DNA of 64,000 nucleotides. It comes from Calvatia gigantea (taxonomy: Eukaryota > Basidiomycota > Agaricomycetes > Agaricales > Lycoperdaceae). A model generated the notes under the pieces. The model was not told the DNA's origin, made no database searches, and worked only from the letters and a program-made list of their open reading frames with translations. A program made the position numbers and the translations under genes. Location: NCBI GenBank assembly GCA_025093985.1, contig JACAAK010000005.1, forward strand, positions 1,240,001 through 1,304,000. Direction: 5' to 3'. Shown in pieces: positions 9,103 through 48,054 of the stretch (its first letter is position 1; the number at the start of each line of letters is the position of its first letter).

Positions 9103-11208
9103 ATGAGCTGCAGGCCACCCAGCTCATCAAACGACCCGTGGGCTGACGACCCGGTCCCGCCGCAATCGTCCCCCGACCCGATCGCTCGTATTCCGGGTGT
9201 GGGCTCCCAGCAGCCACAACCCCGCTACCAAACCCGCGCCTTGACCCAGGCCTCTTCTGGGGAGGGCACGCGCCAACGGTATGCCACCGTCCCGATCACG
9301 GCACGGCCGCCATCATCAACCTCCTCGAGTGGAACCGCCCGACCTTGGTCCCGTGCTCCCTCTCGTGCTACTTCCCCCTCTCCTGTGCCAATGGAGGTGG
9401 CGGACTCTTTCGACGATGACGAGGACGAGGTAGTGGCCCCTGGGGCTGCTGCTTCTGCGATCGCCACCGATCCCCCTGGGAGCTCCGCTGGCAGAGATAT
9501 GTCAGTGGAGTCGTTCAGCGATTTGGAGTATGCTCCATCCGTGGCGGCGTTGGCAGGTGACGAAGAACACCTCGCTGTGGACGTCCAGGATGCAGCCGAA
9601 TCCCTGCACAACCTGTCCTCCTGGCTCAGGTCTGTGCATGCTATGCCGCTCAGCGCGGAATCTACCACAGTGGTACTGGGCGCCGCCTTGGCATTTGTCC
9701 AGTCCCTGTCTAACAATGGCTGGTTGGATTGCTCTCCAACTGGTCAATCTAATCCGAGTTGGCTCGGGGGTCACGCTGTGGCCAACATTGCCTCTCGCTA
9801 CGCTCGTCCCCTGCCAGACAGGAGAGCTACTCCCCCACCTCGGCCATCTGGCTCGGGCGATGTTGACGCTGATATGGGAGGCTCCATGCCTAGATCCGGC
9901 AGATCGAAGCCGGCTAGAGCTCCCGCACCACCACCTCCGTTTCAGCCCGTCCATCCTGCTCGCCGCGAGCGGGATCTTGTCGAGTCGATCCGAAAGAACG
10001 CAGAGGCAAAGCGCCTTGCTCTGCAGCAGCAACGGAGGAGTGCGCCGGTCCAACCTGGTCCGGTGCGCCCTCTTAACATCACCAAGAAGAAGAAGGCAGT
10101 GCCATCCTCGTACGCACAGACGCTATCTTCCTCTGGCAAGGGCAAGTCTGCCCAGATCCCTGTGGTCACAGCTGTGTGCGTTGCGCAGTCGTTCCCAGAG
10201 CTTGAACCCAAGCGAGTCATAGCTATGGCTCGTGAGGCTGAACCCTCGGCGCAAGGCAAGTCCAAGCGCCCTGACAATGTCACGGCGGGTCCCAACCATC
10301 GACAACTTCTCATGACTGCGGTCGCTGTGCCGGAAGGTGCCCCCTGCCCTCAGACTAACCACTTTGTTGAAGTTATCAACAGAGGCCTTGTGCAAGCTCA
10401 GGTCCGCTGCAGGATCGAGTCGGTTCACTCGAGCATGGCCAATTCTTGGTCGTTGCTCACTAACTTCACCCCCACCCCGAAGGATGTCGCCATCATAGAC
10501 GAGTGGGCTCATAAGGCAGTTGCTGAGGGCGTTAAGCTCCAGCTCCGTGTCCCCGACTCCACATCCTACATCAGGATCGTGGATATCCCTTTTATCGATG
10601 AACTTGGCCGCAAGGCCATGACTGTCGAACGCCTCCTGGGCCATCTGTCGAAGTCTCCGCATCGCGAGGACTTCGCCATGCTGTCTCATACCCCGCGCAT
10701 CTCGCGCAACTCTGCCAGCTCTGACACTTGCACAGCTTGGCTCGACTTAGCCAACTTGAAAACTGGCACCCAGATGAAGCGCCTCGTGGGGCGCACCGTC
10801 CAGATTGGAACGCACTCCTGCCGCGTGCAGCAGGCTTCCGCCCGTACTGGGGTCCCCTGGTGTCAGCGCTGCTGGTACTGGGGCCACCCCACTGCTATCT
10901 GTCGATCCCGGTCGAACAGGTGCCCTATCTGCGCTGGGCCTCACACGTCTGAGAACCACTGCACTGTTGCCGGCTGTTGTCATCCGAAGGATCTCAACAA
11001 GGCCACCCCTGAGGGACAACCATGTCCCCACAAGTTCAAATGTCTTAACTGCAGTGGAGAACACCGTGCCGACTCTCACTCGTGCCAGCTTTGGCGCCAC
11101 CGGTATGAGGCCGAGTGGATCAAAGAGCACTACAGAAAGGTGAGTGAACGCCGTCTCGCAAGGATGGCATCACGATCCGCTGATAACACTTCAGCATCCA
11201 CGCAATGA
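9103..11208 (+). CDS. LINE ORF1 protein with CCHC zinc knuckles (copy F)
   Basis: 701-residue nucleic-acid-binding protein that would package LINE RNA into a ribonucleoprotein. The N-terminal half is low-complexity and rich in Ser, Pro and Ala, with an acidic patch (DSFDDDEDEVV) and a basic patch (NITKKKKAV) that may be a nuclear signal. Residues about 400-520 form an ordered region (ending YIRIVDIPFIDELG) like the RRM-type domain before the knuckles of fungal LINE ORF1 proteins. Three knuckles follow: CQRCWYWGHPTAIC, a CPICAGPH variant and CLNCSGEHRADSHSC. The ATG is the first after the conserved 5'UTR. The stop overlaps the ORF2 start in ATGA. Confidence 0.9.
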   Translation: MSCRPPSSSNDPWADDPVPPQSSPDPIARIPGVGSQQPQPRYQTRALTQASSGEGTRQRYATVPITARPPSSTSSSGTARPWSRAPSRATSPSPVPMEVADSFDDDEDEVVAPGAAASAIATDPPGSSAGRDMSVESFSDLEYAPSVAALAGDEEHLAVDVQDAAESLHNLSSWLRSVHAMPLSAESTTVVLGAALAFVQSLSNNGWLDCSPTGQSNPSWLGGHAVANIASRYARPLPDRRATPPPRPSGSGDVDADMGGSMPRSGRSKPARAPAPPPPFQPVHPARRERDLVESIRKNAEAKRLALQQQRRSAPVQPGPVRPLNITKKKKAVPSSYAQTLSSSGKGKSAQIPVVTAVCVAQSFPELEPKRVIAMAREAEPSAQGKSKRPDNVTAGPNHRQLLMTAVAVPEGAPCPQTNHFVEVINRGLVQAQVRCRIESVHSSMANSWSLLTNFTPTPKDVAIIDEWAHKAVAEGVKLQLRVPDSTSYIRIVDIPFIDELGRKAMTVERLLGHLSKSPHREDFAMLSHTPRISRNSASSDTCTAWLDLANLKTGTQMKRLVGRTVQIGTHSCRVQQASARTGVPWCQRCWYWGHPTAICRSRSNRCPICAGPHTSENHCTVAGCCHPKDLNKATPEGQPCPHKFKCLNCSGEHRADSHSCQLWRHRYEAEWIKEHYRKVSERRLARMASRSADNTSASTQ

Positions 11209-14200
11209 ACCCCGAACCTAACGAGTTGAAGCATTTCGTGAAGGGTAGATTATGTATACTGTCTTTTAATGTAGCTAAGAACTATGCATTATTGGACGCT
11301 TTGCTAGAGTCTGAGAAAGATAACTTCGACATCGTGTTCGTCCAGGAACCTCCCTGGCAAACAATAAGATCCGCCCCCTCGACGCTTGACGCTGAGGGTG
11401 AGCCTGTCATCAGAGCACCTAAGCACCCTGAATGGTTGTATATGGTGAGGCCGGCCTCCTCTGTGGAGGAACGAGATCGATCCCGTGTTATGGCTTATGT
11501 CCACACACGGATCAAGAGACTGAGGCCCTCGCTAAGGAGGGATCTTATTGATCACCAGGATGTGATGGTTGTTACCATCTTTAACCACGGCCGTGAATGC
11601 CATCTCATGAATGTCTATTCTGACGATGAGCACACTGCGATTGGGCTTCTCTATGAGAAGCGTGATTCTCTACCCCAGATGCATTACATGGGAGGCGATT
11701 TCAATTGCCATTCGTGTGAGTGGGACGATAACGTTCCGCATCACCACCGACCCGCCCAGCAGCTCGTGGAAGCTGCTGATGACCTCGGCCTCGGGATCTG
11801 GTTGCCAGATTCCAGGGCTTCTACACATGTACCTCGAGATCCGACCAAACGCCAATCGGTGATTGATCTGATCTTTATCTCCGATCTCAGGTGGCGCATC
11901 GCGCGTCCCCAGATCAGATCGGATCTGACGGGCCCATCGGACCATCATCCGCTGTCTGTCACGATCCCTATCCGCCCTGAAGACATCACGAATGTCAGAA
12001 GGGCCTTTCCCAAGAACTCGGCAGTGACTGCAGAATTGCAGTTCCTGGATGAGATCAGAGAAGGGGTGTATGATCTACGGGATCATCCCCTTGCTTCAGC
12101 GTGGGACGTTAATGTCCTGGCATCGGCTATTGGGTCAGTGTTCTCTGCAGCGTGGCATCGCCACACTGTGGAGGTGCACATATCCGCAAAGTCTCAGCCC
12201 TGGTGGGATGAGGATTGCAGGGTCGCCCTTCAGGCCCACAGGGATTCCTTGGACCCTGCGGATTGGAAGGCATTTCGACGCGTTGTGGCGTCTAAGAAGC
12301 GCAAATTCTTTGATGAGAAGATCGAGGAAATTGCTGAGACCAACAAGCACCCTTGGGACCTTATGGAATGGGTCAAGGCGCGCAAGTTACCCACGTGCGA
12401 GGCTATCTCCTACCAGGGGGAGCCTTGTCACACTATGGACTCCCTCTGGGAGGCCCTTCACGGTACCTACAACTCCGCTTCCGGGCGGGAGTGTGATACC
12501 CCCGTTATTGATCCGCTCCCTATGCTACCGCGGTGGGAATGGGTGGACTTCTCAGATAAGGAGCTGGTGGACGCGTTGTCTGCCTGCTCTAAGGTCTCTG
12601 CGCCGGGCCCTGACCACGTTACGTGGAGGATGCTTAAACAGATCGTGCTTGGGGATGCCCTGCCGGTCTTTGTACGTCTAGCTAGCGCCTGTATTCGTTT
12701 AGGTTGCTGGCCGGAGTATTTTAAAGAATCTATGTCAGTCATTATCCCTAAGCCGGGTAAGCCTGCATATTCTATGCCCAAGGCCTTTAGGCCTATAGTT
12801 CTTCTCAACACGCTGGGCAAGCTGTTTGAGAAAATGATTGCAACTAGGCTCCAGTTTGACTCTGTCAAATTTCACCCTAATCAGCTCGGAGGTGTGATCC
12901 AACGATCCACTGAAGATGCTGGCCTAATGCTGACCCACATCGTAAGAGCGGGTTGGGCTAAGGGCCTCAGGACTAGCGTTGTGGCATTTGACATAGCGCA
13001 GTTCTTTCCGTCATTGCACCATGATATACTGGTTGCAATACTTCACAAGCAAGGATTTGCCCCTGAGTTGGTCGAGTTCTTTGCGCACTATCTGGTAGGA
13101 CGGAAGACCCAGTACTGCTGGGATTCTTTCAAGTCCGAACCATTTCCATTGGATGTGGGGGTAGGGCAGGGATCTGCCCTCTCTCCCGTCCTGTCGGCCT
13201 TATACATAGCTCCGCTAATGTGGCTTTTCGACAGGGAGGCGTCATGTCTAGGGATGACTCTTCTGTCATACGTCGATGATGGTACCATCATTGCCCAGTC
13301 GAAAGACTGGGGATCTAACCTTGTGGCTCTTAAGGAGGCATATGGTATTATATTCAGGCTCTTTGAGCACTTTGCCTTGGTACTTGAACACGACAAGTCT
13401 GAGGTCTTTCACTTCTCCCGTAAGCACGGAGATGATAATCCACTGATAGATCTGGGCTTTGCCCCGTTTACTGGTGACACGCCGCTCCGGCCCAAGCCCT
13501 ATTGGAGGTATTTGGGCTTCTACTTCGACCGTGCCCTTACTTTTAAGGAGCATGTTCACTATTACTCTACTAAAGCACTTTCTACGGTGAAAGCCATGAA
13601 GATGCTTGGTAATTCTATGAGGGGCTTGTGGCCTATGCAGAAGCGCCTCCTTTATCGGTCATGCATTGTCCCTATTGCGACGTATGGCTTTAAACTCTGG
13701 TTCTTCAAGGGTTCCCGCTGTAAGGCGGCCCTTAAGAGCCTGAACGTCATGCAAAGACAGGCGGCCCTGTGGATTACAGGTGCTTTCCGGACTGCTCCTA
13801 CTGGGGCCACGGAGTCATTTGCGGGTCTCATACCCATCCAGCTTCACATACAGAAGCTTGCTGTCAGGTCAGACTACAGGATTAAGACCCTGTCACCTAA
13901 CCATCCCCTCAGGGCCCTTATGAGCCCTGAGTATTCTGGGTCTGCTAAGCTGCATGCTCGCTCTATCGGCCTTATGTCTCCTGCAATTCGCAGGAAGACT
14001 AAAGGCTCTTTAATCCAGGCTGATGTCAACCTGGTAAACCTCATCGAGGAGTTTGAGCCTATAGCTTCAATTAATCGGCCCAGATACCGCCTGATGGATT
14101 GCCACCCTGACCAGGTGTCGTTTATGGAGGTGAAACTCAATGTGGAGGGTAACACCGACCCCGAGCATATGCATGCTCTCAATGCGCGCCTTAGGGAGTG

Positions 14201-15098
14201 CAGAGAGGACTTCGGGATTGTTCATATGGTGACAGACGCAAGTCTGCCGCTTCATGGCAAGTTCCAGGCAGTTTCATCTGCCCATGTCTATCGCCAACGG
14301 GAGTGTCTCCGGGAAATCACTCGCGTGGCAGGCCGAGTTACAGTACCTGATGCTGAGCTCATGGCCATTGTACTTGGCATTCACTTTGCTCTTAAGCAGG
14401 GTGACGTCAGGCTCATACGTGTATTCACTGACTCCATTGCATCAGCGAAGCTCGCAGTTGATCCGTCTACACATTCTGGGCAGATGCTATCCCAAGGGGT
14501 GTGTGTGGCGCTGAAACAGTGGCTCTCTGGGGATCCCCGGAGGGACATTGAATTTCTCGCTGTCCCTTCTTCCGAGAAGTGGGAGTTTCACCATGCTGTT
14601 CACCAGCATGTCACCTCGTTCCCTCAGGTCGCTTATGGCCCGAGGCCATTCACTTCTATTGCCCGCCTGCGCAAGGAGGCGGTCGATGATGTTCTGGAGT
14701 CATGGCGCCAGCTGTACTCTACCTCTTCTTATAAGGGGCGTAGTAATATGGATCTCGCCTCTGGGGCGGACCCATCTGTTCCGGGGAAGCCGACCTACCT
14801 TTCTGGTGGGCCCTGGCTCCCTCATGTTAGCAGCTCTAACTCGCTCTGTGTGAGGGCCATGCGTGCTGTTACTGGTCATGCTCCGATTGGGTCGTACCGA
14901 GTACGATTCTTTCCTACTGAAAGCGTTGGCTGTTCGTGTGGCACCGCTCTTGAGGGGCGTTATCACATTTTCGTCTGGTGTCCCAACCACAAGAGGAAAC
15001 TTGACAGACCTCCTCAGACCATTCGTGAGCTGATTGACTTCCTGAACGCAAACCCTGGTGCTTTTGCGTTCAGACCAGATGATGCTGGGATCGGCTGA
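11205..15098 (+). CDS. LINE ORF2: endonuclease, reverse transcriptase, RNase H (copy F)
   Basis: 1,297-residue polyprotein performing target-primed reverse transcription. Order of domains: an APE-type endonuclease in the first 250 residues (VQEPPW, GGDFNCH, SDHHPL), a reverse transcriptase at about 450-720 (FRPIVLLN, AFDIAQFFPSLHHD, GQGSALSP, SYVDDG), an RNase H at about 1010-1110 (TDAS, AELMAI, FTDSIAS) and a C-terminal knuckle (CSCGTALEGRYHIFVWC). This order fits Tad1/I-type LINEs. The ATG overlaps the ORF1 stop, suggesting reinitiation. Compared with copy K it lacks three residues (GVF in VKFGVFHPN), a 9-bp in-frame deletion between TTT repeats in the RT fingers/palm region; effect unknown. 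Confidence 0.93.
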   Translation: MNPEPNELKHFVKGRLCILSFNVAKNYALLDALLESEKDNFDIVFVQEPPWQTIRSAPSTLDAEGEPVIRAPKHPEWLYMVRPASSVEERDRSRVMAYVHTRIKRLRPSLRRDLIDHQDVMVVTIFNHGRECHLMNVYSDDEHTAIGLLYEKRDSLPQMHYMGGDFNCHSCEWDDNVPHHHRPAQQLVEAADDLGLGIWLPDSRASTHVPRDPTKRQSVIDLIFISDLRWRIARPQIRSDLTGPSDHHPLSVTIPIRPEDITNVRRAFPKNSAVTAELQFLDEIREGVYDLRDHPLASAWDVNVLASAIGSVFSAAWHRHTVEVHISAKSQPWWDEDCRVALQAHRDSLDPADWKAFRRVVASKKRKFFDEKIEEIAETNKHPWDLMEWVKARKLPTCEAISYQGEPCHTMDSLWEALHGTYNSASGRECDTPVIDPLPMLPRWEWVDFSDKELVDALSACSKVSAPGPDHVTWRMLKQIVLGDALPVFVRLASACIRLGCWPEYFKESMSVIIPKPGKPAYSMPKAFRPIVLLNTLGKLFEKMIATRLQFDSVKFHPNQLGGVIQRSTEDAGLMLTHIVRAGWAKGLRTSVVAFDIAQFFPSLHHDILVAILHKQGFAPELVEFFAHYLVGRKTQYCWDSFKSEPFPLDVGVGQGSALSPVLSALYIAPLMWLFDREASCLGMTLLSYVDDGTIIAQSKDWGSNLVALKEAYGIIFRLFEHFALVLEHDKSEVFHFSRKHGDDNPLIDLGFAPFTGDTPLRPKPYWRYLGFYFDRALTFKEHVHYYSTKALSTVKAMKMLGNSMRGLWPMQKRLLYRSCIVPIATYGFKLWFFKGSRCKAALKSLNVMQRQAALWITGAFRTAPTGATESFAGLIPIQLHIQKLAVRSDYRIKTLSPNHPLRALMSPEYSGSAKLHARSIGLMSPAIRRKTKGSLIQADVNLVNLIEEFEPIASINRPRYRLMDCHPDQVSFMEVKLNVEGNTDPEHMHALNARLRECREDFGIVHMVTDASLPLHGKFQAVSSAHVYRQRECLREITRVAGRVTVPDAELMAIVLGIHFALKQGDVRLIRVFTDSIASAKLAVDPSTHSGQMLSQGVCVALKQWLSGDPRRDIEFLAVPSSEKWEFHHAVHQHVTSFPQVAYGPRPFTSIARLRKEAVDDVLESWRQLYSTSSYKGRSNMDLASGADPSVPGKPTYLSGGPWLPHVSSSNSLCVRAMRAVTGHAPIGSYRVRFFPTESVGCSCGTALEGRYHIFVWCPNHKRKLDRPPQTIRELIDFLNANPGAFAFRPDDAGIG

Positions 15099-15533
15099 GC
15101 TGGTGCGCATGGGGGGTCCCTGCAGTGTCGCTGGTCTTCTGACCTACTGGGTGGAGAAGTCGTAAGGCAACAGGGGTGGGGTCCCTGGGGGGTGCTTCTG
15201 GCTTCGGCTGGTGGTGCTCCTTTCCTGGACTTGGTTGGGGGCTTCGCGGGGGGCGAAGGCATAAAATAATGGGGTTGGGGTCCCCGGGTGGCAGTGCGGG
15301 TTTGTCCTGCTCAGCTGCTTTCTTGGGCGCCATTTACACAGCGCTTCAAGTTGCTACCCTGCTTGCTGTGTTGCTCTAGATCAGGACTGGGCTGATACCC
15401 TTTCGCTTGGGAAGTTGGGGGTAAGGCGGCTCCAAGCGGGGGCTCCTTGCGCTGGCTCTCCTGACTACACCTGTCCCCCTGAGGGCACTTGGCCGCCATT
15501 GCTGCTAGGTCTGCCTCTTGAGGGATGATCAGG

Positions 15534-15556
15534 GCACCGTCGCAGCGCGACGGTAC
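15534..15556 (+). other. Conserved 3'UTR hairpin (copy F)
   Basis: A 10-bp stem (GCACCGTCGC with GCGACGGTAC, one mismatch-type pair) around a 3-nt loop in the LINE 3'UTR. The same hairpin is present in other copies with paired base changes: CCGTCGC/GCGACGG here, CCGCCGC/GCGGCGG in copy K. It lies about 280 nt upstream of the poly(A). It may be an RNA structure recognised by the ORF2 protein. Confidence 0.7.
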
Positions 15557-15838
15557 GTCACTGGGTGTACACCACAAGACCTGGGCAACTGGGTCTTCTT
15601 CAGTGTGATGGGCATTTCGGGCGACCAGGGGATTTAGCAAGTAAGGGGGGGTCTGGTTTGGTCTGGGTGGGTGTTATGCCTGGCTTGGGTTGGGTTGGGC
15701 TCCTTCTGAACAGTAGATTACTCTTAACTCATTGGACTTTGTAGTTGGGGCGTTGTACTTAGCTACACACGGACTGCGATCGGGCACTGCGTTATAAATT
15801 GGTGCAAGCCATGAATTAAAAAAAAAAAAAAAAAAAAA

Positions 15839-29128: not shown

Positions 29129-31234
29129 ATGAGCCGTAGGCCACCCAGCTCATCAAATGACCCGTGGGCTGACGACCCGGTCCCGCCGCAATCGTCCCCC
29201 GACCCGATCGCTCGTATTCCGGGTGTGGGCTCCCAGCAGCCACAACCCCGCTACCAAACCCGCGCCTCGACCCAGGCTTCCTCTGGGGAGGGCACGCGCC
29301 AACGATACGCCGCCGTCCCGATCACGGCACGGCCGCCATCATCAACCTCCTCGAGTGGTACCGCCCGACCTCGGTCCCGTGCTCCCTCTCGTGCTACCTC
29401 CCCCTCTCCTGCGCCTATGGAGATGGCGGATTCTTTCGACGATGACGAGGACGAGGTAGTGGCCCCCGGGGCTGCTGCTTCCGCGATCGCCACCGATCCC
29501 CCTGGGAGCTCCGCTGGCAGAGATATGTCAGTGGAGTCGTTCGGCGATTTGGAGTATGCTCCATCCGTAGCGGCGTTGGCAGGTGACGAAGAACACCTCG
29601 CTGTGGACGTCCAGGGCGCAGCCGAATCCCTGCACAACCTGTCCTCCTGGTTCAGGTCCGTGCATGCTATGCCGCTCAGCGCGGAATCTACCACAGTGGT
29701 ATTGGGCGCCGCCCTGGCGTTTGTCCAGTCCCTGTCTAACAATGGCTGGTTGGATCGCTCTCCAACTGGTCAGTCTAATCCGAGTTGGCTCGGGGGTCAC
29801 GCTGTGGCCAACATTGCCTCTCGCTACGCTCGTCCCCTGCCTGACAGGAGAGCTACTCCCCCGCCTCGGCCATCTGGCTCGGGCAATGTCGACGCTGATA
29901 TGGGAGGCTCCACGCCTAGATCCGGCAGATCGAAGCCGGTTAGAGCTCCCGTACCACCACCTCCGTTTCAGCCCGTCCGCCCTGCTCGTCGTGAGCGGGA
30001 TCTTGTCGAGTCGATCCGAAAGAACGCAGAGGCGAAGCGCCTTGCCCTGCAGCAACAACGGAGGAGTGCCCCGGTCCAACCTGGCCCGGTGCGCCCTCTT
30101 AACATCACCAAGAAGAAGAAGTCGGTGCCGTCCTCGTACGCGCAGACGCTATCTTCCTCTGGTAAGGGCAAATCTGCCCAGATCCCTGTGGTTACGGCCG
30201 TGCACGTTGCGCAGTCGTTCCCGGAGCTAGAGCCCAAACGAGTCGTAGCTATGGCTCGGGAGGCTGAACCTTCGGCGCAAGGCAAGTCCAAGCGCCCCGA
30301 CAATGTCACGGCTGGTCCCAACCGTCGACAACTCCTCATGACTGCGGTCGCCGTGCCGGAAGGTGCCCCCCGCCCTCAGACCAACCACTTTGTTGAAGTT
30401 ATCAACAGAGGCCTCGTGCAAGCTCGCGTCCGCTGCAGGATCGAGTCGGTTCGCTCGAGCACGGCCAATTCTTGGTCGCTGCTCACTAATTTCGCCCCCA
30501 CCCCGAAGGATATCGCCATCATAGACGAGTGGGCTCATAAGGCGGTCGCTGAGGGCGTTAAGCTCCAGCTCTGTGTTCCCGACTCCACGTCCTACATCAG
30601 GATTGTGGATATCCCCTTCATCGACGAACTTGGGCGCAAGGCCATGACTGTCGAACGCCTCCTGGGCCATCTGTCGAAGTCTCCGCATCGCGAGGACTTC
30701 GCCATGCTGTCTCATACCCCGCGCATCTCGCGCAATTCCGCCAGCTCTGACACCTGCACAGCTTGGCTCGACTTAGCCGACTCTAAGACCGGCACTCGGA
30801 TGAAGCGTCTCGTGGGGCGCACCGTCCAGATTGGAACGCACTCCTGCCGCGTGCAGCAGGCTTCCGCCCGTACCGGGGTCCCCTGGTGTCAGCGCTGCTG
30901 GTACTGGGGCCACCCCACTGCTATCTGTCGATCCAGGTCGAACAGATGCCCCATCTGCGCTGGGCCTCATACCTCTGAGAACCACCGCGCCGTCGCCGGC
31001 TGTTGTCATCCTAAGGATCTCAACAAGGCTACCCCCGAGGGACAGCCATGTCCCCACAAATTCAAGTGTCTGAACTGCGGTGGCGAGCACCGCGCTGACT
31101 CTCACTCGTGCCAGCTTTGGCGCCACCGGTATGAGGCCGAGTGGATCAAAGAGCACTATAGAAAGGTGAGTGAACGCCGTCTCTCAGGGATGGCGTCACG
31201 ATCCGCTGATAACACTTCAGCATCCGCACAATGA
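29129..31234 (+). CDS. LINE ORF1 protein with CCHC zinc knuckles (copy K)
   Basis: 701 residues, same length as in copy F. Residues 1-300 are Ser/Pro/Ala-rich with an acidic run near 100 (DSFDDDEDEVV). A lysine cluster (NITKKKKSV) lies near 330. Residues about 400-520 form an ordered nucleic-acid-binding-type region. Knuckle 1 uses C587, C590, H595 and C600; knuckle 2 begins at C607-C610 (CPICAGPH); knuckle 3 uses C647, C650, H654 and C661. The protein is expected to bind its own RNA in the cytoplasm and help ORF2. The ORF1 stop and ORF2 start overlap in ATGA. Confidence 0.92.
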   Translation: MSRRPPSSSNDPWADDPVPPQSSPDPIARIPGVGSQQPQPRYQTRASTQASSGEGTRQRYAAVPITARPPSSTSSSGTARPRSRAPSRATSPSPAPMEMADSFDDDEDEVVAPGAAASAIATDPPGSSAGRDMSVESFGDLEYAPSVAALAGDEEHLAVDVQGAAESLHNLSSWFRSVHAMPLSAESTTVVLGAALAFVQSLSNNGWLDRSPTGQSNPSWLGGHAVANIASRYARPLPDRRATPPPRPSGSGNVDADMGGSTPRSGRSKPVRAPVPPPPFQPVRPARRERDLVESIRKNAEAKRLALQQQRRSAPVQPGPVRPLNITKKKKSVPSSYAQTLSSSGKGKSAQIPVVTAVHVAQSFPELEPKRVVAMAREAEPSAQGKSKRPDNVTAGPNRRQLLMTAVAVPEGAPRPQTNHFVEVINRGLVQARVRCRIESVRSSTANSWSLLTNFAPTPKDIAIIDEWAHKAVAEGVKLQLCVPDSTSYIRIVDIPFIDELGRKAMTVERLLGHLSKSPHREDFAMLSHTPRISRNSASSDTCTAWLDLADSKTGTRMKRLVGRTVQIGTHSCRVQQASARTGVPWCQRCWYWGHPTAICRSRSNRCPICAGPHTSENHRAVAGCCHPKDLNKATPEGQPCPHKFKCLNCGGEHRADSHSCQLWRHRYEAEWIKEHYRKVSERRLSGMASRSADNTSASAQ

Positions 31235-34200
31235 ACCCCGAGCCTGACGAGTTGAAGCGTTTCGTGAAGGGTAGATTACGTATTTTGTCCTTTAATGTAG
31301 CAAAGAATTATACATTGTTGGACACACTGCTAGAGTCTGAGAAAGACAACTTCGACATCATTTTCGTCCAGGAGCCACCCTGGCGAACGATTAGATCCGC
31401 CCCCTCGACGCTCGACGCCGAGGGTGAGCCCGTCATCGGAGCACCTAAGCACCCGGAGTGGTTGTATATGGTGAGGCCGGCCTCCACTGCGGAGGAGCGA
31501 GATCGACCGCGTGTTATGGCTTTTGTCCACACGCGGATCAAGAGACTGAGGCCCTCGCTTAGGCAGGACCTCATTGATCACCGGGATGTGATGGTTCTCA
31601 CCATCTTCAATCACGGTCGTGAACGCCACTTCATGAACGTCTACTCTGATGATGAGCACACTGCGATCAAGCTTCTCTATGAGAAGCGCGATTCTCTACC
31701 CCAGATGCATTACATGGGAGGCGATTTCAATTGCCATTCGCGTGAGTGGGACGATGGCGTCCCGCATCACCACCGACCCGCCCAGCAGCTTCTGGAAGCT
31801 GCCGACGACCTCGGCCTTGGGATCTGGTTGCCAGATTCCAGGGCTTCTACTCATGTACCTCGAGATCCGACCAAACGCCAATCGGTGATTGATCTGATCT
31901 TCGTCTCCGATCTCAGGTGGCGCATCGCGCGTCCCCAGATCAGATCGGATCTGACAGGCCCATCGGACCACCATCCGCTGTCTGTCACGATCCCTATCCG
32001 CCCTGAGGACATTACAAATGTCAGAAGGGCTTTCCCCAAGAACTCGGCAGCAACTGCGGAATTGCAGTTCCTGGATGAGATCAGAGAAGGGGTGTATGGT
32101 CTTCGTGATCATCCCCTTAATTCAGCTCGGGATGTTAATGTCCTGGCATCGGCCATTGGGTCGGTGTTCTCTGCAGCGTGGCATCGCCACACTGTGGAGG
32201 TGCACATCTCCGCAAAGTCTCAGCCCTGGTGGGATGAGGACTGCAGAGTCGCCCTTCAGGTCCATAGGGATTCTTCGGACCCTGCGGACTGGAAGGCATT
32301 TCGACGCGTTGTGGCGTCTAAGAAGCGCAAATTCTTTGATGAGAAGATCGAGGAAATTGCTGAGACCAACAAGCGCCCTTGGGACCTTATGGAATGGGTC
32401 AAGGCGCGCAAGTTGCCTGCGTGTGAGGCTATCTCCTATCAGGGGGTGCCTTGTCACACTATGGACTCCCTGTGGGAGGCCCTTCACGGTACCTACAACT
32501 CCGCTTCCGGGCGTGAGTGCGATACCCCCGTTATTGATCCGCTCCCTACGCTAACGCAACGGGAATGGGTGGACTTCTCAGCCAAGGAACTGACGGACGC
32601 GCTGTCCGCTTGCTCTAAGGTCTCTGCGCCGGGCCCCGACCACGTTACGTGGAGGATGCTCAAACAGATCGTGCTTGGGGATGCCCTGCCGGTCTTCGTA
32701 CGTCTAGCTAGCGCCTGTATTCGTTTAGGTTGCTGGCCAGAGTATTTTAAAGAATCTATGTCGGTTATTATCCCTAAGCCGGGTAAGCCTGCATACTCTA
32801 CACCCAAGGCCTTTAGGCCTATAGTTCTTCTCAACACGCTGGGTAAGCTGTTTGAGAAAATGATCGCGACTAGGCTCCAGTTTGACTCAGTCAAATTTGG
32901 GGTCTTTCACCCTAATCAGCTCGGAGGTGTGATCCAACGATCCACTGAGGATGCTGGCCTGATGCTTACCCACATCGTAAGAGCGGGTTGGGCCAAGGGC
33001 CTCAGGACTAGCGTTGTGGCTTTTGACATAGCGCAGTTCTTTCCATCATTGCACCATGATATGTTGGTGGCAATACTCCGCAAGCAAGGATTCGCCCCTG
33101 AGTTGGTCGAGTTCTTTGCGCACTACCTGGTAGGACGGAAGACCCAGTATTGCTGGGACTCCTTCAAGTCCGAACCATTTCCATCGGATGTGGGGGTGGG
33201 GCAGGGTTCTGCCCTCTCTCCCGTCCTGTCGGCCTTATACATAGCTCCGCTAATGTGGCTTTTCGACAGGGAGGCGTCACGTCTTGGGACGACTCTTCTG
33301 TCATATGTTGATGATGGCACCATCATTGCCCAGTCAAAGGACTGGGGGTCTAACCTTGTGGCTCTTAAGGAGGCATATGGTATTATATTCAGGCTCTTTG
33401 AGCGCTTCGCCTTGGTACTTGAGCATGACAAGTCTGAGGTCTTCCACTTCTCCCGTAAGCACGGGGATGATAATCCACCGATTGACCTGGGCTTTGCCCC
33501 GTTCACTGGTGATACGCCACTCCGGCCCAAGCCTTATTGGAGGTATTTGGGCTTCTATTTCGACCGCGCCCTTACCTTCAAGGAGCACGTTCGTTACTAT
33601 TCTACTAAAGCACTCTCCACGGTGAAAGCCATGAAGATGCTTGGTAATTCTACGAGGGGCTTGCGGCCTATGCAGAAGCGCCTCCTTTATCGGTCGTGTG
33701 TTGTTCCGATTGCGACATACGGCTTTAAACTCTGGTTCTTCAAGGGCTCTCGCTGTAAGGCGGCCCTTAAGAGTCTGAACGTCATGCAGAGACGGGTGGC
33801 CCTGTGGATTACAGGTGCCTTCCGGACTGCCCCTACTGGGGCCGCGGAGTCATTCGCGGGTCTCATACCTATCCAGCTTCATATACAGAAGCTTGCTGTC
33901 AGGTCGGACTACAGGATTAAGACACTGTCACCTAACCATCCTCTCAGGGCCCTTATGAGCCCTGAATACTCTGGGTCTGCTAAATTGCACACTCGTTCTA
34001 TCGGCCTTATGTCTCCTGCGATCCGCAAGAAGACTAAGGGCTCCTTAATCCAGGCTGACGCCAGCCTGGTGAACCTCGTCGAGGAATTTGAGCCTATGGC
34101 TTCAATTAATCGACCCGGATACCGCCTAATGGACTGCCACCCTGACCAGGTGTCGTTCATGGAGGTGAAACTCAATGCGGAGGGTAACACCGACCCTGAG

Positions 34201-35133
34201 CATATGTATGCTCTCAATGCGCGCCTTAGGGAGTGCAGGGAGGATCTCGGGATTGTCCATATGGCGACGGACGCAAGTCTGCCGCTCCATGGCAAGTTCC
34301 AGGCAGTTTCGTCTGCCCATGTCTACCGCCAGCGGGAGTGCCTTCGGGAGATCACTCGCGTGGCAGGCCGAGTTACAGCACCTGATGCTGAGCTCATGGC
34401 CATTGCGCTTGGCATTCATTTTGCTCTTAAGCAGGATGACGTCAGGCTTATACGGGTATTCACTGACTCTATTGCGTCAGCGAAGCTTGTAGTTGATCCG
34501 TCTACGCACTCCGGGCAGATGCTGTCCCAGGGAGTGTGTGTGGCGCTCAAACGATGGCTCTCTGGGGATCCCCGGAGGGGCGTTGAATTCCTCGCTGTCC
34601 CTTCTTCCGAGAAGTGGGAGTTCCACCATGCTGTTCACCGGCATGTTACCTCGTTCCCTCAGGTCGCTTATGGCCCGAGGCCGTTCACTTCTATTGCCCG
34701 CCTGCGCAGAGAGGCGGTCGATGACGTTCTGGAGTCATGGCGTCAGCTGTACTCCACCTCTTCCTACAAGGGGCACAGTAATATGGATCTTGCTTCCGGG
34801 GCAGATCCATCTGTTCCGGGGAAGCCGACCTACCTTTCTGGTGGGCCCTGGCTTCCTCATGTTAGCGGCTCTAACTCGCTGTGTGCGAGGGCCGTGCGTG
34901 CCGTTACTGGTCATGCTCCGATTGGGTCGTACCGTGTACGATTCTTTCCGAACGAAAGCGTTGGCTGCTCGTGTGGCGCCGCTCTCGAGGGGCGCTATCA
35001 CATTTTCGTCAGGTGTCCCAACCACAAGAGGGAGCTTGACAGACCTCCTCAGACCATTCGTGAGCTGATCGACTTCCTGAACGCGAACCCTGGTACTTTC
35101 GCGTTCAGACCAGATGATGCTGGGATCGGCTGA
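31231..35133 (+). CDS. LINE ORF2: endonuclease, reverse transcriptase, RNase H (copy K)
   Basis: 1,300 residues, apparently complete. Endonuclease: E48 in VQEPPW, GGDFNCH 163-169, SDHHPL 245-250. Reverse transcriptase: FRPIVLLN 528-535, D599 in AFDIAQFF, GQGSALSP 657-664, YVDD 692-695. RNase H: D1013, E1054 and D1079 (TDAS, AELM, FTDS); the usual final GNxxAD box is not recognisable. C-terminal knuckle: C1246, C1248, H1257, C1262. The enzyme nicks chromosomal DNA and primes cDNA synthesis on LINE RNA. Translation probably depends on reinitiation after ORF1. Confidence 0.95.
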   Translation: MNPEPDELKRFVKGRLRILSFNVAKNYTLLDTLLESEKDNFDIIFVQEPPWRTIRSAPSTLDAEGEPVIGAPKHPEWLYMVRPASTAEERDRPRVMAFVHTRIKRLRPSLRQDLIDHRDVMVLTIFNHGRERHFMNVYSDDEHTAIKLLYEKRDSLPQMHYMGGDFNCHSREWDDGVPHHHRPAQQLLEAADDLGLGIWLPDSRASTHVPRDPTKRQSVIDLIFVSDLRWRIARPQIRSDLTGPSDHHPLSVTIPIRPEDITNVRRAFPKNSAATAELQFLDEIREGVYGLRDHPLNSARDVNVLASAIGSVFSAAWHRHTVEVHISAKSQPWWDEDCRVALQVHRDSSDPADWKAFRRVVASKKRKFFDEKIEEIAETNKRPWDLMEWVKARKLPACEAISYQGVPCHTMDSLWEALHGTYNSASGRECDTPVIDPLPTLTQREWVDFSAKELTDALSACSKVSAPGPDHVTWRMLKQIVLGDALPVFVRLASACIRLGCWPEYFKESMSVIIPKPGKPAYSTPKAFRPIVLLNTLGKLFEKMIATRLQFDSVKFGVFHPNQLGGVIQRSTEDAGLMLTHIVRAGWAKGLRTSVVAFDIAQFFPSLHHDMLVAILRKQGFAPELVEFFAHYLVGRKTQYCWDSFKSEPFPSDVGVGQGSALSPVLSALYIAPLMWLFDREASRLGTTLLSYVDDGTIIAQSKDWGSNLVALKEAYGIIFRLFERFALVLEHDKSEVFHFSRKHGDDNPPIDLGFAPFTGDTPLRPKPYWRYLGFYFDRALTFKEHVRYYSTKALSTVKAMKMLGNSTRGLRPMQKRLLYRSCVVPIATYGFKLWFFKGSRCKAALKSLNVMQRRVALWITGAFRTAPTGAAESFAGLIPIQLHIQKLAVRSDYRIKTLSPNHPLRALMSPEYSGSAKLHTRSIGLMSPAIRKKTKGSLIQADASLVNLVEEFEPMASINRPGYRLMDCHPDQVSFMEVKLNAEGNTDPEHMYALNARLRECREDLGIVHMATDASLPLHGKFQAVSSAHVYRQRECLREITRVAGRVTAPDAELMAIALGIHFALKQDDVRLIRVFTDSIASAKLVVDPSTHSGQMLSQGVCVALKRWLSGDPRRGVEFLAVPSSEKWEFHHAVHRHVTSFPQVAYGPRPFTSIARLRREAVDDVLESWRQLYSTSSYKGHSNMDLASGADPSVPGKPTYLSGGPWLPHVSGSNSLCARAVRAVTGHAPIGSYRVRFFPNESVGCSCGAALEGRYHIFVRCPNHKRELDRPPQTIRELIDFLNANPGTFAFRPDDAGIG

Positions 35134-35568
35134 GCTGGCGCGCGTGGGGGGTCCCTGCGGTGTCGCTGGTCTTCTGACCTACTAGGTGGAGAAGTCGCAA
35201 GGCAACAGGGGTTGGGTCCCTGGGGGGTGCTTCTGGCCTTGGCTAGTGGTGCTTCTTTCCTGGGCCTGGTTAGGGGCTTCGTGGGGGGCGGAGGCGTAAA
35301 ATAACGGGGGTGGGGTCCCCGGGTGGCAGTGCGGGTTCGTCCTGCTAAGCTGCTTTCTTGGGCACCGTCTAGGCGGCGCTTCGAGTTGCTACCCTGCCCG
35401 CTGTGTTGCTCTGGATCAGGGCTGGGCTGATACCCTTTCACTTGGGAAGTTGGGGGTAAGGTGGCTCCAAGCGGGGGCTCCTTGCGCTGGCTCTCCTGAT
35501 TACATCTGTCCCCTCTCGGGCGCTTGGCTGCCGCTGCCGCTGGGCTCGCCGCTTGTGGGATGATCAGG

Positions 35569-35591
35569 GCACCGCCGCAGAGCGGCGGTGC
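35569..35591 (+). other. Conserved 3'UTR hairpin (copy K)
   Basis: Perfect 10-bp stem GCACCGCCGC / GCGGCGGTGC with a 3-nt AGA loop, same position in the 3'UTR as in copy F. The stem differs from copy F by a matched pair (C-G here, T-A there), which supports selection on the RNA fold. Confidence 0.72.
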
Positions 35592-35872
35592 GTCACTGGG
35601 TGTACACCACAAGACCTGGGCGACTGGGTCTTCCTCAGTGTGATGGGCATTTCGGGCAACCGGGGGATTTGGCAAGTAAGGGGTGGTCTGGTCGGGTCTG
35701 AGTTAGTGCTTGGGTTGGGTTGGGCCGCTTCTGAACAGTAGATTACTCTTAACTCATCGGACCTTGTAGCTGGGGCTTTGTACTTAGCTACACGCGGACT
35801 GCGATCAGGCACCGCGTTATAAATTGGCGCAAGCCATGATTTAAAAAAAAAAAAAAAAAAAAATAAGGGCCA

Positions 35873-42319: not shown

Positions 42320-44273
42320 TGTGCTCTCCCCTTACAAGCTAGGAGCCTGGACCAAGCACCTCGCTGCCTCAGGTCTCATGGCCAAATACCCATCCCTCTT
42401 GTCTATGTTACATAGTGGTTTCCTCGCAGGCATCCCACCTATCCTCGCTACTTACATTCCTGATAATCGTCCATCCTTAATTGATCACCTTGATGAATTC
42501 CAAAAAATAACTCAGTCAGAGTTCGAGAAGGGGAGATACCTCAGCCCCTTCTCGAAAAGTGAGGTCACAGAGCTAATCGGTCCTTTCCAAACCTCTCCAC
42601 TAAGCATCATCCCCAAACCAGGCAAACCTGGAAAGTTCAGGCTCATCCAGAACTTCTCACACCCACACTCGCTAAGTGCACCAGTAACTTTGATCAATAG
42701 TGTTATCCTCTCAGAAAACTACCCATGCACGTGGGGCACGTTCGGCACAGTGTCACTCTTGATCTGGCAGCTCCCACCCGGATCAGAGGGAGGCACTCGA
42801 GACGTCAAAGAAGCCTACTGAACAGTACCACTCCACCCTTCACAATGGCCAGGGATGGTTGTAAAATTAAATGGTGCTGACTCCTTCACAATTGACACCC
42901 AGAATGTGTTCGGCCTAGCCTCAGGAGCAGGTGTATATGGCTTAATTGCTGATGCAGGCGTTGACATTATGAGAGCAAACGGCCTTGGTCCAGTTACGAA
43001 ATGGGTGGATGATCACCTATTCCTCCGAATCCGTCGCAACTTCCTCACCGAGTACAACTTACTCAGAGCACAATTAGCACAAAAAATCGCCCGTAATGGA
43101 GGGCTCAGACACAACAAAGGGCGCCTCTGGTTCCGAGGGGACACAATGGACAATGGACGTTTCGAAGAATATGACAATGACAGTACCATTCCCATCATAG
43201 ATCAATTACCTCTCACAGCCCTACAACGTAACCAACATGATGCCCAATTCACCTATTCATTTGATGACATTGATATGCTCTCAGAAGAGCTAGGCATCCC
43301 TTGGGAACAAGAAAAGGACGTTCCATTCACCACTTCATTTCTTTTTATTGGGCTTGAATGGAACATCAAAGAACGTACAGTCGCTCTCCCTTCACCCAAA
43401 AGGAGAAAGTACCTGGCAGCCATTGACGAGTGGTTGAGTAAAACCACACATACCCTCGACGAAGCACAGAAACTCCATGGAAAACTCCTGCATGCCGCAC
43501 TTGTACTCACGAGTGGGCGCCCTTACCTAATCCACATTGAGGCTTTCCTAGCCGTTTTTCATAACTCTCCATTCAAACCACGCACACCTCAGAAAGCCCT
43601 CAACAATGACCTCCAATGGTGGATACAAGCACTCTCCCCAATCACAGTCGAGCGACCTCTCCCAGGACCAGTCATCGTCCTCGACACAGCAGCTTATTCC
43701 GATGCTAGCTCGGGAGTGGGCCTTGCAATTACCATCGGCAACCGTTGGCGAGCCTGGAGACTCCTCCCAGGTTGGAAAGCTAAAGGGAGAGATATTGGCT
43801 GGGCAGAGGCAGTGGCCTTCTACTTCCTTGCAGCAACAATCGCAGCTCAGCACCCAAATGGGGGCCACTTCAGACTCTACGGTGACAACCAGGGAGTGGT
43901 TGAAGGCTGGTGGAAAGGGAGGAGTCGAAATAAACCCTCAAACGAAGTCTTCAAATGGATCAACGAACTGGCTAAGGATTCTAGATCCTCCTTCTACACA
44001 CGATATGTCCCCAGTGAGTTCAACCCAGCAGATGGCCCCTCAAGAGGAAAGTATGAGAGCACGGCACTCCTCCTCCCAGCACCCCCTATCCCACATGCAC
44101 TCCGGCACTTCGTTGTGGACTTCAATCATCCCCTCCTACCCCTTGAACAGAAACTCGCCAGGGAGAGCAAGCTACCGCTCCCTAAACCAAAACCTCCCCA
44201 CCAGTCAAACCGAGCCCAAAACTTCCTTGACCAGCAAGCAGAGGACCTCGCGTCTCAGATCAAGACCTGGTAG
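42045..44273 (+). pseudogene. Ngaro-like Pol: reverse transcriptase and RNase H, one nonsense codon
   Basis: One frame of 743 codons, interrupted only by TGA at 42819-42821 in KEAY(stop)TVPLHPSQW, where related RTs have arginine (CGA to TGA). Coding probably begins near 42290 (SSNVLSPYKLGAW). RT motifs: SIIPKPGKPGKFRLIQNFSHP, GGTRDVKEAY, FGLASGAGVYG and the catalytic WVDDHLF (VDD at 43005-43013). The RNase H-like part follows (VLDTAAYSDASSGVG, GWAEAVAFYF, RLYGDNQGVVEGW, PSEFNPADGPSRG). No methyltransferase domain is seen. It would copy the element RNA into circular or linear DNA. Confidence 0.9.
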
Positions 44274-44280
44274 CCCTCAT

Positions 44281-45498
44281 CCAAAGATCGGACGTCCTTT
44301 ACAGGCTCGGACACAATCACTACCCCCTACCCCAGCCCCCTACAGTCCCATCCTCACCCCTACCCCATCCTCGCTACGTTTACATGTCCTCGCTAAAGAA
44401 CGGCTACTCAAATGGTTGCCAGCAAGACCACGACCAAATGCCGAAATTAGCTCACCCAATGCACAAATGCTCGTAACATTTAACACAGCACAGGACGAAG
44501 ACAGGTTGAGACACCTCCTCTCCCTCGGTTGGGACGAATCCACTCTCTCTACCTATGGTTCAGGCCTACTCGTATTTCATGTCTTCTGCGACTCCCGAGC
44601 TATTGACGAAGACCAGCGAGCACCCACTTCCTATCAACTCTTATCAACCTTCATCTCGAGCCTCGCAGGCTCTTACTCCCGAACCTCCATTTCGAATTAC
44701 ATAAATGGGCTAAGGGCATGGCACATTCTACACAGAATGACATGGGAAACCAATGAGGCAGAGCTCGAAGTCCTACTCCGCACCTGCCTGAAGACAGCCC
44801 CGAGTTCCTCCAAAAAGGCCAAACGAGCACCATGGACCATAGAGATCATTGAAAAACTCCGAGCGGAGCTTGACTTCTCTATCCACGAGCACGTCGCTGT
44901 ATATGCTTGCCTCACCACAGCCTTCTATGCCGCAGCACGACTTGGTGAACTTACAGTACCCAACCTGAAAGCCTTTGACCCGGCCAAACACCCCAAAACG
45001 TCGGACGTGCGTACAGAAGAAGATCGGAATGGTCTCACCTCCACGATCATTCACATCCCAAGCACAAAAGCGTCCCAGCACATAGGTGAAGACATATACT
45101 GGACTCAACAACGAGGCCTTTCAGACCCGAAAACGGCCTTCGACAACCATTTAGACTTCAACAAGCCCCCAGACGGAGCTCACCTCTTCTCCTACCCTCA
45201 CGGCTCCAGCCACCGCCCCCTCTCACGAAAAACCTTTCTGGACACCGTAAACAAGGCAGCACGAAAAGCAGGGCTCGAGCAACTCCATGGCCATGGCATC
45301 CGGATAGGTGCCACCCTCGAATACCTTTTACGGGGCCTCTCATTCGAAGCAATGAAGGTGAAAGGACGTTGGGCTAGCGACGCCTTCACAGGATACCTCA
45401 CAAACCACGCTCAAATCCTGGCCCAACACACACATGCAACCTCAGAGTTGCATGATTCCATTTCCCGGATCACCATCCCACAGCTCCGCCGCCGCTAA
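44281..45498 (+). CDS. Tyrosine recombinase of the Ngaro-like element
   Basis: About 405 residues ending RRR at 45498. The frame is open further upstream to 43606, but that part overlaps pol and is unlikely to be coding. N-terminal part: SAM-like core-binding domain (LLSLGWDESTLSTYGSGLL, SISNYINGLRAWH). Catalytic domain: arginine I in AARLGEL (44938), the HxxR box HGIR (H 45292, R 45301), tryptophan in GRWASDAF in the usual H/W place, and the nucleophile tyrosine in FTGYL (45394). It replaces an integrase, inserting circular DNA without target duplication. No obvious ATG start, so a frameshift or spliced mRNA is likely. No damage is seen. Confidence 0.9.
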   Translation, partial: PKIGRPLQARTQSLPPTPAPYSPILTPTPSSLRLHVLAKERLLKWLPARPRPNAEISSPNAQMLVTFNTAQDEDRLRHLLSLGWDESTLSTYGSGLLVFHVFCDSRAIDEDQRAPTSYQLLSTFISSLAGSYSRTSISNYINGLRAWHILHRMTWETNEAELEVLLRTCLKTAPSSSKKAKRAPWTIEIIEKLRAELDFSIHEHVAVYACLTTAFYAAARLGELTVPNLKAFDPAKHPKTSDVRTEEDRNGLTSTIIHIPSTKASQHIGEDIYWTQQRGLSDPKTAFDNHLDFNKPPDGAHLFSYPHGSSHRPLSRKTFLDTVNKAARKAGLEQLHGHGIRIGATLEYLLRGLSFEAMKVKGRWASDAFTGYLTNHAQILAQHTHATSELHDSISRITIPQLRRR

Positions 45499-45559
45499 CT
45501 CAACTACTTCAGTGGGTACCAATCTTTGGCTTGATGCGTCGAGACTAATTTTCCTGGGT

Positions 45560-46272: not shown

Positions 46273-46966
46273 GTGGCAGACTTGTGTCCATTGCCATATG
46301 GACAATCCCGAGGTCCTCTCTGCACTCCCTAAGGCGCACGTTGAGAGCATACATATGCTCGGGGTTGGTATTACCCTCCGCATTGAGTTTCACCTCCATG
46401 AACGACACCTGGTCAGGGTGGCAGTCCAGCAGGCGGTATCCGGGCCGATTAATTGAGGCCATAGGCTCAAATTCCTGTAGTCCGACCTGACAGCAAGCTT
46501 CTGTATGTGAAGCTGGATGGGTATGAGACCCACGAATGACTCTGTGGCCCCAGTAGGGGCAGTCCGGAATGCACCTGTAATCCACAGGGCCGCCCGTCTC
46601 TGCATGACATTCAGGCTCTTAAGGGCTGCTTTACAGTGGGATCCCTTGAAGAACCAGAGTTTGAAGCCATATGTTGCAATAGGCACAACACATGACCGAT
46701 AGAGAAGGCGCTTCTGCATAGGCCGCAAGCCCCTCATAGAGTTACCGAGCATCTTCATGGCCTTCACCGTAGAAAGTGCTTTGGTAGAGTAGTAATGAAC
46801 ATGCTCCTTAAAAGTAAGGGCACAGTCGAAGTAGAAGCCCAAATACCTCCAATAGGGTTTGGGCCGGAGTGGCATATCACCAGTGAATGGGGCAAAGCCC
46901 AGGTCAATCGGCAGATTATCATCCCTGTGCTTGCGGGAGAAGTGAAAAACCTCAGACTTGTCATGC
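46272..46966 (-). pseudogene. LINE copy M, part 2: ORF2 thumb/connection region
   Basis: Continuation of copy M after the Ngaro-like element: codons from PYWRYLGFYFD (46875) through MQKRLLYRSC, FKLWFFKGS, RTAPTG and EFEPMASINRPGYRL to SLPL at 46272. A deletion near 46475 removes about 60 codons (NLS...SDYRN joins to LQEFEPMAS in another frame). At 46966 the sequence is interrupted by the tRNA-headed element, whose 17-bp target duplication is CCTCAGACTTGTCATGC. Confidence 0.9.
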
Positions 46967-48037
46967 TTTTTTTTTTTTTTTTTTTTTTTTTACTTCATGG
47001 CTTGTGCCAATTTACGAAGTATAGGGCCCTCCCCTTTTGGGGAAGACCCTATTGACCTGTGCCCTTGCGGGACAGACACCAGCTATTACACTGGACCCCG
47101 GAATCAACTTAGACTCTAACCTGGCTTAGTCAACCAGGAGAACCGACAGAGGATTTAGTTCGCCCTTGAGCCAGGTCGTGGGAGACTGTCCCAGCCTGCT
47201 ACGGCCCTTGCTTCACTAGGGAGTTTATATAGAGCCCCAGCTACTAGAGTTTCCCGTTTCCAGGCAGGTGGTTCAATTTTTTGCCAACCGGCTTGGATCC
47301 CCACCTGTCCAAGGTCTCTGCCTTGCCCAGCAGCCAACCATATTGTGCATTCGTGGACATTGCCACGATATGGAGTTATTTCAGTATCTGCAGTTCCCCA
47401 GCCTAACACAGTGCAGCTGAACCAGCAACTTTTTTTCCCGGTACACACCGGTCTGCTAATGCCCAATTCCCACCGTTGCAGGCCACAGAGTACCTACTAC
47501 CGCTGACTAACAACCACTACTACTCTGGTTTATGCCGGCAGCACCCGGACCAGGATTTCATGGTGGATGGTGGTGTGGCCCATATTTGGACATTCCACTG
47601 TTTTTGTTACTATTCCCTCGCTTACTGTGCCCTATGCTTTCGCTCCCATAATGGGTACAACTAGATCTAGCAATTAAGATCCAGCCAATTTGGGCCCTGA
47701 TGAGGATTCCCCCTGCCCTCAGCCAGCCCAGATTTCAGAGGAGTTACACCCCATTCCCCAGATACCACCGAGATTTAACCTGACAGGAGATGCCACCTCC
47801 AGGGGATTGCCTACTTCCCACATTCAGGCCAGAGATCAAGACCCCCACCAAACATTCCCAGGACCTGATTTACCAAGTCTGAGAACCGAGCACATGACTG
47901 TAACACCTGATATGTCATGCACCTTTCCCTACTTTTAATGTACAGGGGTTGAGAGGGAGTCGAACCCTCAACATGTCTGGTAGCTGCACAGCCACCTTTT
48001 CCAGTCTTTGGTGGTGATACCACTGGGCTATGGAGGC
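46967..48037 (-). mobile_element. tRNA-headed SINE-like element with LINE 3' tail
   Basis: 1,071-bp retroposed element, read on the minus strand. The 5' end (48037) is exactly the edge of a 17-bp target duplication (CCTCAGACTTGTCATGC, 46950-46966 and 48038-48054). It starts GCCTCCA-TAGCCCAGTGG, a tRNA-like beginning with A box, followed by a B box, then a body of about 900 bp without known genes. The 3' end has a hairpin (47021-47052), then the last 20 nt of the LINE 3'UTR (46995-47014, one mismatch) and a 25-nt poly(A). The transcribed strand has no TTTT in more than 1 kb before the tail. These features fit a pol III-transcribed SINE using the LINE machinery. It is longer than typical SINEs and only one copy is seen here. 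Confidence 0.75.
47940..48037 (-). promoter_or_regulatory. tRNA-like head with pol III A and B boxes
   Basis: A-box match TAGCCCAGTGG at 48020-48030 and B-box match GGTTCGACTCC at 47956-47966, about 53 bp apart, with the A box beginning 8 nt from the element start. The B box sits in a perfect T-arm-like hairpin (GAGGG-TTCGACT-CCCTC). The 5' heptamer GCCTCCA is positioned like an acceptor strand, but its 3' partner is not preserved (TCAACCC), so this is a degenerate tRNA-derived promoter and not a functional tRNA gene. Confidence 0.7.
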
Positions 48038-48054
48038 CCTCAGACTTGTCATGC

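Follow-up and report, generated by a model that had tools for sequence, protein, structure and literature searches.

What is the unit at positions 46967..48037 (minus strand) of a 64,000-nt stretch of Calvatia gigantea DNA (contig JACAAK010000005.1, positions 1,240,001 to 1,304,000; hereafter the window), and how does it spread? A first-pass annotation, made from the sequence alone, proposed a new family of short interspersed nuclear elements (SINEs) with a tRNA-like head and a tail derived from the resident long interspersed nuclear element (LINE). It suggested looking for several genomic copies with the same ends and different target duplications, and that is what we found: the unit is a SINE with dispersed copies, common ends, and duplications that are specific to each site. 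Very probably, it represents a family of tRNA-like SINEs of about 1.05 kb that uses the resident LINE as its helper. Read from its 5' end, the element starts with a tRNA-like head and continues with a body of about 0.9 kb, followed by a hairpin of 14 bp, a tail of 23 nt, and lastly 25 A.

Eight copies with common ends and distinct target duplications

The 45.95-Mb assembly contains eight copies of the SINE, which are 96–98% identical to the window copy across about 1.05 kb. A query with the whole element found these eight copies and a 46-nt tail piece from a LINE that adjoins one of them; queries with only the head or only the body found the identical set of eight and nothing further. (Each query gave eight first-look candidates, and all eight were scored.) The 5' end is common to all eight copies, and in all seven copies that have the tail, the 3' junction is at the identical base. 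None of the eight is truncated at the 5' end; in contrast, partial copies of the LINE are numerous in the window. The first pass had named a single-copy sequence, or a body that matches something else, as findings that would undermine it. Instead, the element is multicopy, and our search, within its sensitivity, found no further genomic match to the body. A chance junction with the LINE can also be rejected, as seven copies carry the same one.

The seven tailed copies are flanked by target duplications of 11–17 bp, which are distinct at every site, and have poly(A) of 9–25 nt. The window copy's 17-bp duplication, as originally annotated, is CCTCAGACTTGTCATGC, at 46950..46966 on the poly(A) side and at 48038..48054 on the 5' side. 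The first three bases on the 5' side (CCT, which is AGG on the element's strand) may belong to the element, which starts with AGG in other copies; if so, the duplication is 14 bp, and the 5' end of the element is at 48040 instead of 48037. The annotated 25-nt poly(A) (minus strand, 46967..46991) is also correct. The host site of the window copy is a copy of open reading frame 2 (ORF2) of the LINE, likewise on the minus strand, and the uninterrupted target site is present in another, paralogous LINE copy within the window. By locus, the duplications are 14–17 bp (L001), 11 bp plus a shared A (L002), 12 bp (L003), 14 bp (L004), 14 bp with 12 matching (L005), 12 bp (L007), and 13 bp with 12 matching (L008). 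The 5' end is AGGGCCTCC in five of the seven copies with duplications (including L001, where AGG could be part of the target), GGGGCCTCC in L004, and AGGCCTCC in L008.

In L006, the eighth copy, the 5' end is present, but the sequence stops at position 1021, where it meets the poly(A) of a LINE in the opposite orientation. Its tail is lost: we searched for the tail and did not find it, and no target duplication is visible at this locus. At 1456–1520 of L006, the poly(A) of the LINE directly abuts the inverted tail-less SINE, which could be due to a nested insertion with loss or to an inversion event.

Could several of these copies be segmental duplicates of a single insertion inside LINE-rich repeats, instead of separate retrotranspositions? 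Seven of the eight copies do lie within, or at most about 31 kb from, the LINE tails that were listed (100 of the 158 exact genome matches to a 29-nt tail pattern, two of the 100 being SINE tails, and 56 matches to a rarer variant; a reversed control of the 29-nt pattern has 0 matches). However, the flanks and duplications are distinct at all seven tailed copies, and the poly(A) lengths vary. We consider segmental duplication to be extremely improbable.

Relative to the majority sequence of the SINE, each copy has 5 to 24 substitutions. Among the 81 columns that vary, C/T or G/A accounts for 77, and 48 of these are at CpG (taking C and G as ancestral). These changes would fit the decay of methylated CpG and a young family.

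A promoter-like head and few T runs

The first-pass annotation pointed to a tRNA-like A box and a B box within a T-arm hairpin. Both boxes match the consensus without a mismatch. The A box, TAGCCCAGTGG (minus strand, 48020..48030), has no mismatch in any of the eight copies, and the B box, GGTTCGACTCC (47956..47966), is exact in seven copies and has one mismatch in L005. The boxes are 52–54 nt apart; the exact value varies with the copy and with the reading of the A box. None of 2000 mononucleotide shuffles of the SINE has such a pair (at most one mismatch in A, with B exact), and this is the only pair on either strand of the window, even if one mismatch is allowed in each box. The B box lies in a predicted T-arm-like hairpin, GAGGG-TTCGACT-CCCTC (47953..47969), with a 5-bp stem and a 7-nt loop. 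By sequence match, then, the SINE has a putative internal promoter for RNA polymerase III (pol III). ARAGORN found no tRNA in the window.

Upstream of the last 30 nt, the sense strand has no run of four or more T (T4) in any of the eight copies, while on the antisense strand there are 4 to 6. Runs of three or more T are depleted in the SINE (2 versus 9.4 expected from mononucleotide shuffles, P = 0.0014), and runs of three or more A are enriched (20 versus 11.4). Beyond the end of the match, the first T4 or longer run is 18 to 821 nt downstream in the seven tailed copies.

A 3' end shared with the resident LINE

The candidate helper is on the plus strand of the window. Its ORF1 (9103..11208) encodes 701 amino acids, with a CCHC-like motif near the C terminus (by pattern only) and no match in Pfam. 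ORF2 (11205..15098) encodes 1297 amino acids, with an endonuclease and a reverse transcriptase (RVT_1); we found no match to RNase H at E = 0.001. The 3' untranslated region (UTR) and poly(A) are at 15099..15838, with the shared tail at 15795–15838. A second copy of the LINE (29129..35863, plus strand) also has both ORFs open (29129–35133; 701 and 1300 amino acids) and the shared tail. Among 228 relatives of the LINE's reverse transcriptase, of which 120 were listed, the best ten are 57–64% identical, and the named ones are from the agaricomycetes Cyclocybe aegerita and Candolleomyces. The first pass called the LINE Tad1/I-type; its membership of the Tad1 clade is putative.

The last 23 nt of the SINE before the poly(A) (minus strand, 46992..47014) are the 3' end of this LINE, whose commonest form is TAAATTGGCGCAAGCCATGATTT. 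Across the seven tailed copies, three are identical to the commonest LINE tail, two have one difference, one has two, and the window copy has three. So the LINE-derived tail that was claimed at first is real, although the claim of one mismatch in 20 nt was slightly low. Another 14 sites in the window have the tail within three mismatches (the mean for 100 shuffles is 0). We compared 55 distinct contexts of the tail, drawn from the window and from retrieved loci, and dropped those cut short by the end of a locus: the upstream sequence is the LINE's 3' UTR in 48 cases, the SINE in 7, and anything else in 0. Patterns aimed at other tail-bearing families found only six of the SINE copies, or nothing. 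The base directly after the poly(A) is G at 31 of 45 LINE sites (3 of the 48 were unscored) and at 6 of 7 SINE sites.

The commonest tail is predicted to form a hairpin, with UAAAU pairing with AUUUA, a 2-nt bulge, UGGC pairing with GCCA, and a GCAA loop. Both the SINE and the LINE have a second predicted hairpin 2–6 nt upstream of the tail, but the sequences of these are unrelated; the SINE-specific hairpin of 14 bp (47021..47052) is just 5' of the shared tail. The predicted fold of the SINE's 3' end is matched by 0 of 200 shuffles. As in stringent-type tail sharing, the SINE ends like a LINE from its own genome, here over 23 nt and poly(A).

Proposed role of the LINE

We propose that the SINE is most likely mobilised in trans by the resident LINE. 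Pol III would start at AGGGCC, 10 nt upstream of the A box. It would read through the entire element, because there is no internal T4 run, and would terminate where the flanking DNA happens to have a T run. The ORF2 protein of the LINE would bind the 3' end of the RNA, that is, the 23-nt hairpin with the GCAA loop and the poly(A), which are common to the SINE and the LINE. It would then nick a new site and prime reverse transcription on the poly(A), which would lead to duplications of 11–17 bp. The family may be active at present.

Several observations weigh against parts of this proposal. The family has only eight copies, and four of the seven tailed copies deviate from the commonest LINE tail by 1–3 bases. 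The shared hairpin by itself is not striking, as 11 of 200 shuffles fold equally well, and 19 variants of the tail keep just 150 of 171 pairs. The absence of T4 is weak evidence on its own (P = 0.105 with mononucleotide shuffles and 0.55 with dinucleotide shuffles); because it is unremarkable next to the dinucleotide shuffles, we describe the T runs as suggestive only. As for the head, the predicted fold has no cloverleaf. The closest match to a host tRNA (among 30 distinct sequences, from 30 of the 62 tRNA hits in the genome) is to the T arm alone, and 5 of 200 shuffles equal it. None of the host tRNAs compared is a convincing parent, so "tRNA-like" is a safer label for the head than "tRNA-derived".

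We also considered that the helper might see only the poly(A), as relaxed, L1-like LINEs do, or that the helper is another LINE, so that the shared tail is historical. The SINE does end in poly(A), which is acceptable to relaxed LINEs (PMC3747384), and a second retroposon on contig C9 (see below) combines poly(A) with part of the LINE's upstream hairpin but lacks the terminal one. But all seven tailed copies retain the tail precisely at their 3' end, and the base preference after the poly(A) resembles the LINE's. We think this alternative is unlikely. Its poly(A)-only version overlaps with our proposal, as the resident LINE remains the helper.

Another possibility is that a processed non-coding RNA of the host was joined to the end of the LINE by template switching, as in the WEIRD-MGL chimeras (MINEs) of Magnaporthe, and that the element is not a self-propagating SINE. 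The element is similar in length to MINEs. However, MINEs have 5'-truncated portions of MGL, many of which are long, up to 5 kb (PMC2104539), and the SINE's junction is constant in all seven tailed copies, which implies that one founder was recopied. Furthermore, we found no tail-less parent of the body in the assembly, and the A and B boxes are at the extreme 5' end of the element. Template switching seems even less probable than a helper that ignores the shared tail.

Comparison to known SINE/LINE pairs

The Magnaporthe LINE MGL is placed in Tad1. For Magnaporthe, Blumeria, and Aspergillus, published work describes pairs in which the tail is shared with a Tad-type LINE (PMC2104539, PMC3747384, PMC5063351). 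Such pairs, which the first pass took to be rarely described in fungi, are already known from these three ascomycetes. In the literature searched, the fungal pairs are from ascomycetes only, and we found none from a basidiomycete.

Mg-SINE and MGL resemble our pair in that the 3' end of the SINE is similar to that of the LINE, which was called molecular mimicry (PMC2104539). They are entered as a tRNA SINE/LINE pair in the table of a review (PMC3747384); the host is an ascomycete, and we liken the pair to ours by description only. Similarly, SINE2-1_BG from Blumeria, also an ascomycete, is a tRNA SINE whose tail is paired with that of a Tad1/HaTad-type LINE, Tad1-24_BG (PMC3747384). In the ascomycete Aspergillus fumigatus, the 3' end of AfuSINE2-1a resembles the 3' UTR of the Tad-clade LINE I-1_AF, but the similarity is at positions 210–335 and the element ends in ACT repeats instead of poly(A) (PMC5063351). 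Eg-R1 from Blumeria is also a non-autonomous retroposon of the SINE-like class, but as described, it lacks the A and B boxes, has internal poly(T) stretches, and has no genomic poly(A) (PMC6022598), and it differs from our element on each of these points. In the stringent LINEs UnaL2 (paired with UnaSINE1) and ZfL2, the ORF2 protein recognises a stem-loop in the 3' tail (PMC4176376); these are fish LINEs of another clade, and the GCAA-loop hairpin in our pair is a prediction.

The Calvatia pair stands out for its basidiomycete host and for a long body in which T4 runs are absent. The length of the SINE, which the first pass considered unusual, is large, but there is a parallel in mgsr1, a Magnaporthe SINE of 800 bp (PMC5063351). 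As far as the literature searched goes, the SINE extends the tail-sharing strategy to Basidiomycota. The pair is also clean: the SINE is young, the copies of the candidate helper have both ORFs open, and a single short RNA end is in common. This narrows the question of recognition by fungal LINEs to a 23-nt hairpin and poly(A).

The body and a block shared with viroid-like RNAs

The body (minus strand, 47053..47952) does not seem to encode a protein. The longest frame within the SINE that starts with ATG, GTG, or TTG is 105 amino acids; a Pfam scan of three of its frames gave no match; and a database search with two frames found no relative. An origin of the body from a host mRNA or retrogene is not supported by the genome, as the only matches are the eight copies and the frames have no relatives in Pfam or the database. 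At Rfam's gathering thresholds, nothing in the window matches.

At a permissive threshold, however, the body is similar to RF04191, an Rfam family of hairpin ribozymes from virus-like metatranscriptomes (viroid-like RNA). The E values are 4.1e-8 and 4.3e-9 in short scans and 1.1e-4 when the complete window is scanned, in which case the runner-up from any family has 0.41. The score is mainly due to a 36-nt block (minus strand, 47728..47763), which in the SINE's majority sequence is identical to the printed consensus at 34 of 36 positions and in the window copy at 32; among 300 shuffles, the highest count is 22. A functional hairpin ribozyme in the SINE is unsupported: the scores are 30–36 bits, compared to a gathering score of 210, and the block falls in unpaired columns of the RF04191 model.

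A genome search with 28 nt of the block, allowing up to three mismatches, found ten matches (none for a reversed control): the eight SINE copies and two loci on contig C9. The two C9 loci belong to another repeat and are 91% identical to each other across 382 nt; the block is their only significant similarity to the SINE (30 of 34 and 30 of 35 nt). Both match RF04191 weakly (E = 3.4e-4 and 0.003). A third copy on C9 is truncated at the 5' end. Duplications of 14 bp flank this copy, which ends in poly(A), and 23 nt of it match (95.7%) the upstream hairpin in the LINE's 3' end. The three copies (L096 88–464, which is C9:307437–307813; L097 150–531; and L098 about 125–295) thus represent a second retroposon family in the genome, with a different part of the LINE's end and, in the two longer copies, the same block.

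Conserved central domains are known from animal SINEs, namely the CORE and V domains. By analogy, the 34-nt block, CCGGGGAATGGGGTGTAACTCCTCTGAAATCCGG (the 36-nt stretch less 2 flanking bases), might serve fungal retroposons as a conserved central domain that is mobile, and retroposon RNA and viroid-like RNA (RF04191) might have exchanged this module. The sequence similarities above speak for this reading, which we consider less likely than not. Two results stand against it. The block has no common fold that we could find: the C9 copies fold unlike the SINE, and the fold of the SINE stretch is equalled or bettered by 34 of 200 shuffles. Also, scanning viral contigs for the pattern yielded 1, 0, 0, and 2 records, with matches that we judged to be at chance level, so no viral contig record was judged to carry the block. 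In a survey, hairpin ribozymes were found in RNA and not in DNA sequences, with matches in fungal, plant, and metazoan transcriptomes (PMC8216279), and ambiviruses of fungal transcriptomes carry the related Hairpin-meta1 (PMC10237039). The block that the second retroposon and a viroid-like RNA family have in common is a separate lead that can be tested.

Genomic placement

LINE-related DNA accounts for 54,167 of the window's 64,000 bases (85%). The LINE tails listed are confined to a single zone per contig, of up to about 240 kb, and all 56 of 56 matches to a rarer variant of the tail are likewise within a single zone per contig. In Agaricus bisporus, four HaTad-type families are found solely in the putative centromere clusters, and in all of them (PMC7473861); because of this restriction, we think that the LINE zones of Calvatia are probably centromeres. 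The window is one of these centromere-like zones. (The word SINE does not appear in the main text of the Agaricus paper, PMC7473861.)

LINE DNA is within 1.5 kb of five of the eight SINE copies. Two further copies are about 17–18 kb (contig C74) and 31 kb (C4) from the nearest of the LINE tails listed. The remaining copy (C23, 4.55 Mb) is separated by about 3.1 Mb from the LINE tails listed for its contig, of which there are three. The list of exact tail matches ends before it reaches C23 and C74, so there may be nearer tails on these two contigs. This difference between zone-confined LINE tails and a distant SINE copy may help to tell insertion preference from selection.

Elsewhere in the window, at 41800–45500, there is a DIRS-like element. 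Its frames, which we judged by eye to be reverse transcriptase/RNase H-like and tyrosine-recombinase-like, have one weak Pfam match that is below the cut-off. It is followed by direct repeats of 223 nt, at 45560 and 46050.
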